Notes under the pieces: generated by a model
Database searches by the model: none
Told to the model about the DNA's origin: nothing
The model's input: only the letters and a program-made list of their open reading frames with translations
NCBI GenBank assembly: GCA_010094045.1
Contig: ML986599.1
Location: 56,787 to 120,786 of the forward strand
Direction: 5' to 3'
Length of the DNA stretch: 64,000 nt
Source of the DNA: Lojkania enalia
Taxonomy: Eukaryota; Ascomycota; Dothideomycetes; Pleosporales
Made by a program: the position numbers and the translations under genes
Shown here: positions 17,653 through 51,805 of the stretch, in pieces
Layout: every line of letters begins with the position of its first letter
Position numbering within the stretch: the stretch's first letter is position 1

Positions 17653-17867
17653 TGTTATGGGGATTTTGGCTAGTCCGCCGAGCTGTATCAGATATCGATG
17701 CACAATATCACGGTCGATATCACGCTGGATATCACGCTGGATATCACGCTGGATATCAGCTGATATACCCCTTTTTCATGTACATAAATATGGCCCGCTG
17801 GCCATCTTCAATCAACCAGTTCAGCTCCTCATCTCCCTCCCTGAGACAAGATTCGCCTCTCACCGCA
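17653..17867 (+). mobile_element. Solo-LTR-like element, copy A (215 bp)
   Basis: The element begins TGTTATGGGGATTTTGGC and ends CTCACCGCA, and is flanked by the perfect 5-bp duplication TACCT (17648-17652 and 17868-17872). Inside are a tandem array of a 12-bp unit (GATATCACGCTG), the palindrome TATCAGCTGATA, a C-C-C-C-T5 block and a TATA-like ACATAAATATGG at about 17782, 75-85 bp before the end. This is the longest array of the four copies. TG...CA ends with 5-bp duplications are the hallmark of LTR insertions. No internal retrotransposon genes or second LTR are in the window. Confidence 0.85.
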
Positions 17868-24498: not shown

Positions 24499-24702
24499 TG
24501 TGGTGAGAGGCGAATCTTGTCTCAGGGAGGGAGATGAGGAGCTGAACTGGTTGATTGAAGATGGCCAGCGGGCCATATTTATGTACATGAAAAAGGGGTA
24601 TATCAGCTGATATCCAGCATGATATCCAGCGTGATATCGACCGTGATATCGTACGTCGATATCTGATACAGCTCGGCAGACTAGCCAAAAATCCCCATGA
24701 CA
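24499..24702 (-). mobile_element. Solo-LTR-like element, copy B (204 bp)
   Basis: In reverse orientation it begins TGTCATGGGG and ends CTCACCACA, with the perfect 5-bp duplication TGTTC (GAACA on the plus strand at 24494-24498 and 24703-24707). It shares with copy A the GATATC array (fewer units), TATCAGCTGATA, the TATA-like box and the 3' block CCTCCCTGAGACAAG. Confidence 0.85.
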
Positions 24703-26755: not shown

Positions 26756-26947
26756 TGTGATGGAGATTTTAGCAAGTCTACCGAGTTATATCGGATATCG
26801 TCGTATGATATCACGCTCGATATCACGCTGGATATCAGCTAATATACCCCTTTTTCTATGTACATAAATATGGCCCGCTGGTCATCCTGAATCAATCAGC
26901 TCAGTTCCTCATCTCCCTCCCTGAGACAAGATTCGCCTCTCACCACA
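26756..26947 (+). mobile_element. Solo-LTR-like element, copy C (192 bp)
   Basis: It begins TGTGATGGAG and ends CTCACCACA. The flanks are ATATT (26751-26755) and GTATT (26948-26952), a 5-bp duplication with one difference. It has the shortest intact GATATC array and is otherwise collinear with copies A and B. It abuts, and seems to have cut, the minus-strand pseudogene to its right. Confidence 0.82.
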
Positions 26948-49400: not shown

Positions 49401-49983
49401 GTCAAATATAAGGTGCCAAGTTTGCACCTAAATCAATATCGCCCGCAATCCGATATTTGAAACTGACTCACCCGCCATATAGAAGAATTTTCAGACAACT
49501 GCGGCACTATAGGACAGAATCTTAAGGGTGCTAGATACTGCCTAGTTAGGTTGTTCAGTTACAGGGATTAGGCTCGGCTGCGCTACGGAGAATTCAAGTA
49601 GCAACCTTTTAATACAGCGTTGCCAAAGATCATTTCGCCTAGTAATGTCTCTTGTTTCGACTAGCAACACTTAAACTATCAAATTATACTCTCTGACTAC
49701 TCAGAGAATTGATAGATTTTTTCCAGTCGTAAAGAGAACACAATGTGAACATCTAGGTGGACCATGTCGCTATGGGACCCGGACGTCTCGATACCCCTCA
49801 CCACACCTCATCAGGGACAATATTAGGCTATGACGTCGCTAATAATTCACATTTCCGACGACTTATTCCGCCGCAATTGCTTTCATAACTTCCTGGAATT
49901 GCTGTTCGGATATTTCAAGTGTTTCGCTACTAGTAATTATCCTTCTAGCACTCCTCGACATAAGATCGTGCCGTTGCATCACC
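46432..49983. other. Long gene-poor, partly AT-rich region
   Basis: There is no supported gene in 3.5 kb. From about 46680 to 47220 the DNA is very AT-rich and ends in an A9/T10 block, resembling RIP-worn sequence. Short frames (47873-48079 plus, 47996-48331 minus) lack any family resemblance. Confidence 0.5.
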
Positions 49984-50308
49984 ATGGGCAGCGGACAATC
50001 TAGCATAGAAACCGTATCAGAGAAGAGCGGTGGCAAGCCGTCAACCGGAGGTGGCAATAACACGAACTGCAGGAATTGCAAGGGATGTCGGAATTGCTCG
50101 AATTGCACTAGTACGCTTCTGCTTCCCTTGGACATATTGTCACTGCTGCTCGATTTCCTATTTGTGCGTTTCGAGAATAATATTAGAAATAATATTGACT
50201 GATGCATTTGTAGATTGTACGGATTGTGATAATTGTTCGAACTGTGCCAATTGCATAGAGTGTACGAATTGCTCGAACTGTACGAACTGTTACAAGTGCG
50301 TGTCCTGA
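49984..50308 (+). CDS. Cysteine-ladder miniprotein with N-myristoylation-like start
   Basis: Exons 49984-50110 and 50214-50308, joined by a 103-nt intron (GTACGC...CTGAT...TTTGTAG), give 73 aa. The protein starts MGSGQSS, which fits the N-myristoylation consensus (Gly2, Ser6). A Ser/Gly-rich spacer follows. Then cysteine occurs at every third residue without a break from C29 to C71: 15 triplets of mostly Asn-Cys-X (NCRNCKGCRNCSNCT... NCSNCTNCYKC). The splice keeps the three-residue register exactly, which strongly supports the intron. At DNA level this is an imperfect 9-bp tandem repeat. I know no characterised domain with this period. A membrane-anchored metal-binding, palmitoylated or beta-solenoid protein is possible. 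A further exon may continue the ladder (50343-50412). Confidence 0.7.
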
Positions 50309-50412
50309 TGGTAGGAAACAGAAGATGGTGTGCTGATTGAAGCAGTTGCACTAATTGCACTAATTGTAGTGGGTTAAAGAATAAGAGGAATTCTAGTAAT
50401 GAGCATGAATAA

Positions 50413-50817
50413 AGATGGGATTATTAACACTGTGAATAGCATAGTGAATTGTCACGTCAGAGTTGCTATTTCCTGTTCCTATGCTATGAAGTATAATATT
50501 TCAATGATGCCAGGGGTTGGGCATTGTTCAGATGTTAGATAAAGTGCTGTCAATGCCCCGTGTAGTATCACTATCATTCCTACAGCGCAAAACACGCACC
50601 AAGGCTTCTATGTGCCCCATGCTTCTTTCACGTCAACTCAGGCATGTCCCCCAAATAGGGCCTATAGATCTCCTGACTTCCACAACAACTTTAGGAGGGC
50701 GTGTTGGGAGCAAAAACTTTTCTTCTGCCGCCTCCCTCTTTTCTCCCTCGAACTCCGCCTCCCACTCAAACCACAACCTACATTCGCCACTCCGCCGCGT
50801 GAAAACTTCTTTTCGAA
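50413..50817. other. Intergenic region
   Basis: No gene recognised. C/T-rich sequence from about 50690 probably belonged to the promoter of the decayed gene that follows. Confidence 0.4.
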
Positions 50818-51805
50818 ATGGAGGCTGAGTGTCAGAGTTTCCTTGATCAGATGCTGCCAAAGCAGCTCAGGCTTGTCGAGTCCTCGAGCACGGAACGGTC
50901 CGGCAAGACCCCCCCTCCCACTTCAGCACCTCTAACCCATTTTGAGGTTAAAAAGTAGAACCCGAAGACGCCCCTGCCGACCCAGCTTCTCCTTCGGCCG
51001 CTTCTGCAGAAGTTATTGGCTTCGTCAGCATTAATGGTAGATAGAGTGATACATCTTCACCACAAGAGGCATTTCTCAACCCCGATGAGGCCCCCCAATC
51101 CTCCCGTCCGCCTGGGATTCTCACCGAAGCGTTCTGGACCGAGTATGAGAGGGAGTTGGAGGGAAAGGGGAGACAAGAAAGAGTGATCCCAATCAGAGAG
51201 CCTTGGGGCTCTCATATCTACAGGATTGGAGGGGGGATAGGAAGAGGAGAAGAAAAGGTAAAGGAACCGGCTGGCGCAAAAGGCTCCGCGCAGTTTGAGC
51301 TAAAGGGACACCACATCGAAGAAAAAAAAGCCTGAATTCGGGAATTTTGCCTCCAGAACGTCTTCGAGTGGGAGGACTGCCGAGCCGAACTAATATATGC
51401 TGGTTTGGATATTGGCGACTTCGACTGATACGCCATCAAGGAGGGGGGTTACAACGTTCATGTCGACGGCCGCCCGAACAAGGGCTTCACCTACCTCCAC
51501 TCCGGCTAGAACCTAGCGAAAGGCTTTAAGATTTGCATCTCCGCTGCCGAGAAGTACCAGAAGTGACGTACTAACGCGCTCACCAGGAACCGTCCGAGCA
51601 GAAGGCCGCTTGAAAAGTCATGTTCATCGAGCACGAGCCGTACGGCAGGCAAGGGGAAGCGGCGCGCTGGGCAGTACAGCTTCTCAGTATGAGGACCATG
51701 GCTAAGGGCCTTGAGGACAGGAGGCGGGTAGCTGAGGATTTCGAGTTTGTGTGTGGGTTCGTGACGGAGATCTGGGTTTTCCAAGAGAAGAAATTCAAGG
51801 CGTAG
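50818..51805 (+). pseudogene. Decayed gene of unknown family
   Basis: From ATG 50818 a frame reads MEAECQSFLDQMLPKQ and SSSTERSGKTPPPTSAP, then shifts near an A-run at about 50954. The next frame reads EPEDAPADPASPSAAS, ILTEAFWTEYERELEGKG, EWEDCRAELIYAGLDIGD, EGGYNVHVDGRPNKG and NLAKGFKICISAAEKYQK. Several single stops interrupt it, mostly where Trp or Gln is plausible. A third frame ends in FIEHEPYGRQGEAARW and EDFEFVCGFVTEIWVF at 51805. The pieces are clearly protein-like and ordered, so this was one gene. I cannot name it. Confidence 0.6.

Follow-up and report, generated by a model that had tools for sequence, protein, structure and literature searches.

What kind of product is made by a gene in which every third residue is a cysteine? 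The question is raised by a locus of the pleosporalean fungus Lojkania enalia, which lies in a stretch of 64,000 nucleotides (contig ML986599.1 of assembly GCA_010094045.1, positions 56,787 to 120,786, forward strand; the whole stretch is called the window below, and coordinates are window positions). Our favoured answer, to which we give a probability of about 0.42, is that the single-copy gene at 49984-50412 encodes a 91-residue protein that would be tethered to the membrane by a myristoyl group and would form a beta-solenoid, likely four-sided, whose inward cysteines hold soft metal ions. The ladder of cysteine triplets itself is real, coding and beyond chance.

A sequence-only reading had described the product as a 73-aa protein. 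Its ATG at 49984 (sequence context CACCATGG), its intron at 50111-50213 and its stop ending at 50308 are all there, and so are its 15 [N/G/D/E/K]-C-x triplets, which keep their register across an intron that was the best for ladder length among 20 GT..AG pairs tested. But the model most likely stops too early, because it missed a second intron. On the 3' side of the stop at 50308, TGC ACT AAT TGC ACT AAT TGT AGT GGG in another frame gives three further triplets, and removal of intron 2, which has a GTGCGT donor, a CTGAT branch-like site and a GCAG acceptor, leaves the ladder in register; the product then has 91 aa, its 17 triplets follow one another without a break, and its tail is SGLKNKRNSSNEHE. 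Among 78 GT..AG pairs, one alternative (50302-50342, 41 nt, donor GTCCTG) gives a longer ladder of 18 triplets in 94 aa, but the 17-triplet model is preferred because its splice signals are better and its match to a homologue from Lophiotrema is free of gaps. The exon 1 product matches Lophiotrema MGSCQS..GGNNSNCRDCKGCKNCSNC. Intron 2 is further supported by the conserved C-terminus of the Lophiotrema homologue and by the metagenomic protein P0036, whose likeness starts exactly at the start of exon 3; judged from its protein letters, it looks like a final exon whose reading began within an intron. In another metagenomic protein, P0006, the protein letters suggest that an intron following the fifth triplet, in the same phase as intron 1, was translated unspliced. 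The 73-aa form ending in KCVS, with intron 2 retained, could be a real or alternative product, since the frame is open to 50308 and its KC pair is in register, but we consider this very improbable because the conserved C-terminus of the Lophiotrema homologue is encoded in exon 3. Thus the gene most likely extends beyond 50308, and a three-exon, 91-aa product is the best reading of the splice signals and of the comparison (Table 1).

Table 1 Coordinates of the ladder gene in the window
Feature	Position	Strand	Description
Exon 1	49984..50110	+	MGSGQSS start, Gly/Ser-rich linker, triplets 1-5, first base of triplet 6
Intron 1	50111..50213	+	103 nt, phase 1, GTACGC..CTGAT..TGTAG
Exon 2	50214..50295	+	Rest of triplet 6, triplets 7-14, first two bases of triplet 15
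Inferred intron 2	50296..50345	+	50 nt, phase 2, GTGCGT..GCTGAT..GCAG
Exon 3	50346..50412	+	Last 3 triplets, cap SGLKNKRNSSNEHE, stop TAA (50410-50412)
Cysteine ladder	50065..50371	+	17 x-C-x triplets, broken by the two introns only

The base frequencies of the window give a probability of 0.031 for TGY, so that 17 consecutive cysteine codons would arise with a probability of about 1.8e-26. The nine-base units are mostly different from each other (14 of 17 distinct), the cysteine codon begins with TG in all 17 but ends with T in nine and with C in eight, and the third codon of the unit, which encodes the outward residue, varies freely. This pattern points to selection on the protein and speaks against the non-coding minisatellite that might have explained the repeat. 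Adjacent units differ by 3.5 and distant units by 3.4, which gives no hint that the repeat has expanded recently. When the protein was compared with its own genome (58.1 Mb, 400 contigs), this locus alone was found, as three exon-wise matches, and the exact DNA pattern for three N-C-x triplets had two matches, both within this gene, against one for the reversed control pattern. The gene is thus single copy, and neither a second gene copy nor another exact N-C-x stretch of three was found in these contigs. On the minus strand, a frame of 185 codons without stop (49863-50420) spans the whole gene including the introns; it had no Pfam match and is probably a by-product of the repeat.

The gene has relatives, although the possibility had been raised that there would be no homologues anywhere: they were found in Lophiotrema, in Macrophomina and in metagenomic data. 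One search, with 16 candidates, found the hypothetical protein BDV96DRAFT_580411 of Lophiotrema nucula (Pleosporales; P0001) with an E-value of 4.6e-17. The two ladders align without gaps over 17 triplets each, and the non-Cys ladder positions are identical in 18 of 34 cases, while shuffled units gave 11.2 ± 1.8 (P=0.0005). P0001 also shares the C-terminal cap [GN]LK[NG]xxNxSNEH (its C-terminus is NCSGLKNRKNASNEHA) and has the start-like MGSCQST internally, at residue 41, but two of its triplets lack Cys, and it differs further in a PPSY motif and in a 40-residue extension in its annotation. The hypothetical protein B0J12DRAFT_155644 of Macrophomina phaseolina (Botryosphaeriales; P0004) has the ladder and the same cap; it differs in its 18 triplets, with Cys in the middle of 13 and Ser or Leu in the middle of the others, and in the lack of an MGxxx[ST] start. 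Of 190 candidates, 54 proteins reached E<=1 with a profile built from the window and Lophiotrema proteins. In a set made of the window protein and 55 fetched relatives, the cap [GN]L[KR][NGD]xxN was present in eight of 56 (the window protein and seven of the 55: P0001, P0004, P0005, P0006, P0007, P0009 and P0036). Seventeen triplets were counted in four of eight near-complete members (the window protein, P0001, P0007 and P0008), with 18 in P0004 and other numbers in P0005, P0006 and P0009. With a ladder in strict register followed by this cap, the window protein fits an unnamed fungal ladder family.

The sequence-only reading had also proposed a lipid anchor, and this part stands by comparison only. 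The start of the window protein fits the N-myristoylation pattern G-{EDRKHPFYW}-x(2)-[STAGCN]-{P} and has a small residue at position 6. Four of the eight capped proteins carry MGxxx[ST] ahead of the ladder (the window protein, Lophiotrema at residue 41, P0006 at residue 1 and P0009 at residue 45), whereas the other four, P0004, P0005, P0007 and P0036, are without it; neither the cap nor MGxxx[ST] was found in the remaining 48 proteins examined. A membrane tether by N-myristoylation is likely. PPxY occurs in three of the 56 proteins (P0001, P0006 and P0045), and the window protein has none. P0045 (124 aa) starts with MGNTQN, has PPxY-type motifs and carries a short ladder behind DEFGNINC; from its letters it looks like a giant-virus protein, which would place a myristoylation-like start with a ladder outside the fungi.

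Ladders are also found far from fungi. Our pattern scans found them in many bacterial, archaeal and viral records, but most were low-diversity repeats: among the matches listed, 70 of 299 ladder stretches had a nine-mer diversity of at least 0.6 and 229 were dropped. The scans mix coding ladders with simple repeats, so all such figures describe the matches listed and are no census; low-diversity stretches were removed before counting, and two later sets kept 95 of 151 and 48 of 80 candidates. Phage records did contain diverse coding ladders, in many cases more than one in the same record, and all ten ladder proteins scanned scored against PHROG 15341, a cluster whose function is unassigned there. 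Matches to this PHROG were found at ten places in one 41-kb record, at five in each of two others and at one in an archaeal metagenome-assembled genome (Cenarchaeum), while there was no match in the own fungal genome searched exon by exon, nor in 14 control genomes. The phage proteins share with the window protein the long [NDGS]-C-x ladders and the Leu caps in register, but they carry N-terminal modules (DxNGNxAS..WGSxEAA..ALxSL or RWYDENNNSWxTEE..YSPTLT), and neither type (DxNGN.. or YDENNNSW..) is present in residues 1-27 of the window protein. The window protein scored an E-value of 1.3e-9 (38.8 bits) against PHROG 15341, but its reversed sequence scored 3.3e-6 (27.7 bits), so we rejected this match as proof that the fungal and phage ladders descend from one ancestor.

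The 41-kb record with ten ladder places is phage record G004 (L132, L247, L254, L258 and others); most of the ten have the RWYDENNNSW..YSPTLT start, and these ladders are an expanded phage gene family. Among 20 hand-chosen open reading frames (ORFs) next to phage ladders, six matched PHROGs with a named function (three helicase or primase, one RusA-like, one methyltransferase and one terminase), three matched PHROGs of unknown function and 11 matched none, which hints at an early, non-virion role. For P0002, a protein search returned only P0002 itself and P0003, and tblastn with the low-complexity filter on found nothing in phages and plasmids; in viral contigs, where there were 17 candidate stretches, it recovered a single one.

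The wider set of ladders suggests which residue forms the core. In interruptions of up to 18 residues, the register was held in 50 of 61 cases, where chance would give one third (P about 8e-15), and the 73 non-Cys middle residues in them included 32 Ser, 12 Leu, seven Gly and three charged residues. In 38 of 75 ladder ORFs the triplet that directly precedes the ladder had Leu at its in-register middle position, and in 26 of 76 so did the triplet that directly follows it, with a background of 5.7%; the fungal cap GLK obeys the same rule, with Leu at the inward position in place of Cys. Because the register is kept, the replacements are Ser and Leu, and Leu stands at the ends, the Cys position appears to be a buried core with Leu plugs at its ends; on these sequence patterns, the middle residue of the triplet behaves as core.

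A solenoid fold with a period of three had been suggested for the ladder, and this is what AlphaFold2 predicts for the Lophiotrema homologue: with a 57-row alignment the ladder forms a regular solenoid at a pLDDT of 90-93, with one bridged residue per three residues from 76 to 134, while the N-terminal 70 residues are of low confidence. Structure prediction without an alignment gave no more than about 63 for the ladder. The triangular, 9-residue turn that was part of the suggestion is less favoured than a likely four-sided turn of 12 residues, because the in/out pattern is common with the coil of the beetle antifreeze protein and because of a weak lag-4 signal. In four datasets, the z values were 4.2, 2.1, 1.5 and 2.9 at lag 4 and 1.4, 1.0, 0.9 and 2.1 at lag 3, the last falling to 1.1 without internal duplications. 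In the 95-of-151 ladder set, the residue-3 class has a further, unexplained peak at lag 2 (z 2.8).

The beetle protein was also the top sequence match in the PDB: 1ezg, the antifreeze protein of Tenebrio molitor, gave an E-value of 2e-5 over 50 gap-free residues, and the match was lost when the query was reversed. We rejected it as homology and regard it as convergent geometry only. According to PMC8038014, residues 2, 5, 8 and 11 of the coil TCTxSxNCxxAx point inward, Cys2 and Cys8 among them are joined by a disulfide, and activity appeared only after oxidative dialysis. Both proteins have an out-in-out period of three and Cys at inward positions, in a tight beta-helix. However, in Tenebrio Ser and Ala take up two of the four inward places in each coil, whereas the window ladder has Cys at every inner place, and the Tenebrio protein is secreted, disulfide-bonded and has a TCT ice face. 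The window protein contains no TCT ice-binding motif and no hydrophobic stretch that could be a signal peptide (within residues 1-27, no 9-residue stretch has a hydropathy above -0.2), so it is not an antifreeze protein. We regard the predicted fold as a variant of the beta-solenoid and not as a wholly new class, given that there is a precedent for its in/out pattern.

Two other cysteine-rich groups had to be compared. Metallothioneins have C-x-C or CC clusters, but the window protein has no CC, no CxC and 16 CxxC, and it matches no Pfam family. Precursors of heterocycloanthracin and sonorensin (TIGR03601) do have Cys at every third residue, but they differ from the window protein in their bacterial leader for ribosomally synthesised and post-translationally modified peptides (RiPPs) and their CGG/CFG triplets; the heterocycloanthracin precursor (PMC2674419) was the only every-third-Cys family found in the open-access literature searched. 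Among the matches listed, L107, L170, L174, L186, L208 and L227 have the same DNA pattern and are heterocycloanthracin-like bacteriocin precursors, with L107 scoring 32.3 bits against TIGR03601, below the cut-off of 35. It could be argued that our locus is itself such a RiPP precursor, whose Cys-Xaa-Xaa repeats would become thiazoles, or a non-coding minisatellite, given that the pattern matches in other genomes are mostly low-diversity repeats. We consider this next to negligible, as neither TIGR03601 nor any other NCBIfam model matches the window protein, its Cys triplets are not rich in Gly-Gly, and its codons show selection on the protein.

How, then, might the protein work? In the favoured reading, Met-Gly-Ser-Gly-Gln-Ser would be recognised by N-myristoyltransferase and anchor the protein at the inner face of the membrane, and a flexible Gly/Ser-rich linker of about 20 residues would separate the anchor from the ladder. 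In each of the 17 triplets of Asn-Cys-x type, N/D/G would form the corner, Cys would point inward and the variable residue outward, and the C-terminal cap GLK would put Leu in the inward place of Cys. Anchor, linker, cysteine-core rod and Leu cap would together make a cytosolic, membrane-tethered device. Stabilising bonds should be needed, because a coil so narrow has almost no hydrophobic core and the beetle protein uses disulfides; in the cytosol the thiols would be reduced and would hold soft metal ions. By this analogy, metal-thiolate bonding may be the likeliest cytosolic substitute for the beetle disulfides, although we put it somewhat short of an even chance.

Next in our ranking is a purely steric core, possible but rather unlikely, where the solenoid is the same and Cys is merely the side chain that fits best into a cytosolic core with very little room. 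In that case the protein would be a rigid tethered binding rod whose outward residues contact partners, and the PPxY seen in a few of the relatives would bring in a ubiquitin ligase with a WW domain. The in-register replacement of inward Cys by Ser and Leu, the Leu at the ladder ends, the freely variable outward residue and the PPxY of the three relatives all agree with this, but the window protein has no PPxY, and Cys is far commoner in ladders than Ser, Ala or Val, a bias that is partly built in as the searches targeted Cys. A redox lock ranks third and seems improbable: a loose reduced ladder would be stiffened on oxidation by disulfides across the lumen, which would make it a membrane-attached switch for oxidative stress. 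The oxidation-dependent beetle protein is its precedent, but the sequence gives no pairing of the cysteines, and the phage ladders would sit in a reducing bacterial cytoplasm. N-myristoylation with nearby Cys is the classical setting for S-acylation, and relatives have MGC or MGSC starts, so many ladder Cys might be palmitoylated after myristoylation and the ladder might lie flat on the membrane. This is more improbable still, because the window protein has Gly at position 4 and no Cys before residue 29, and the replacements by Ser and Leu together with the Leu caps suggest buried positions, not acylated ones. As for the metal-thiolate reading, we can also imagine, with more doubt than for the locus itself, a wider class of "thiol tubes" in phages, bacteria or archaea, giant viruses and, in a myristoyl-anchored form, fungi, in which 12-residue turns with four inward Cys each would build four sulfur columns and a one-dimensional metal-thiolate wire.

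The fungal neighbours of the gene (ferric reductase-like, phospholipase A2, MFS transporter and a Fungal_trans factor) show no clear functional link to it, although such neighbours fit the genome of a filamentous fungus. Adjoining the gene, positions 50800-51800 have higher G+C and broken coding-like frames, possibly a decayed gene. Elsewhere in the window, tandem repeats with 12-bp units like ATATCACGCTGG, related to one another, occur at three separate sites (17705-17766, 24600-24663 and 26807-26837), and positions 4-855 hold a tandem repeat of 6.8 copies with a 126-bp unit that reads like TPR repeats.

That no described family has this repeat was claimed earlier, and it agrees with Pfam (no family for the window protein or the ten ladder proteins scanned), with NCBIfam (sub-threshold matches only for those ten) and with the open-access literature, where searches for the repeat and for myristoyl/PPxY combinations found no description of such a protein; the pattern has, however, already been clustered, without a name, as PHROG 15341. 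Among solved structures we found no close match to an all-cysteine-core solenoid, and to our knowledge there is no solved example of such a beta-solenoid inside a cell. If our reading is true, an intracellular beta-solenoid with an all-cysteine core is buildable, and it would be a natural scaffold on which to stack metal-thiolate or redox centres. It would also account for a PHROG without a function. For fungal biology, it would mean a new, conserved lipid-anchored miniprotein, with a gene that gene predictors would miss owing to its short exons.
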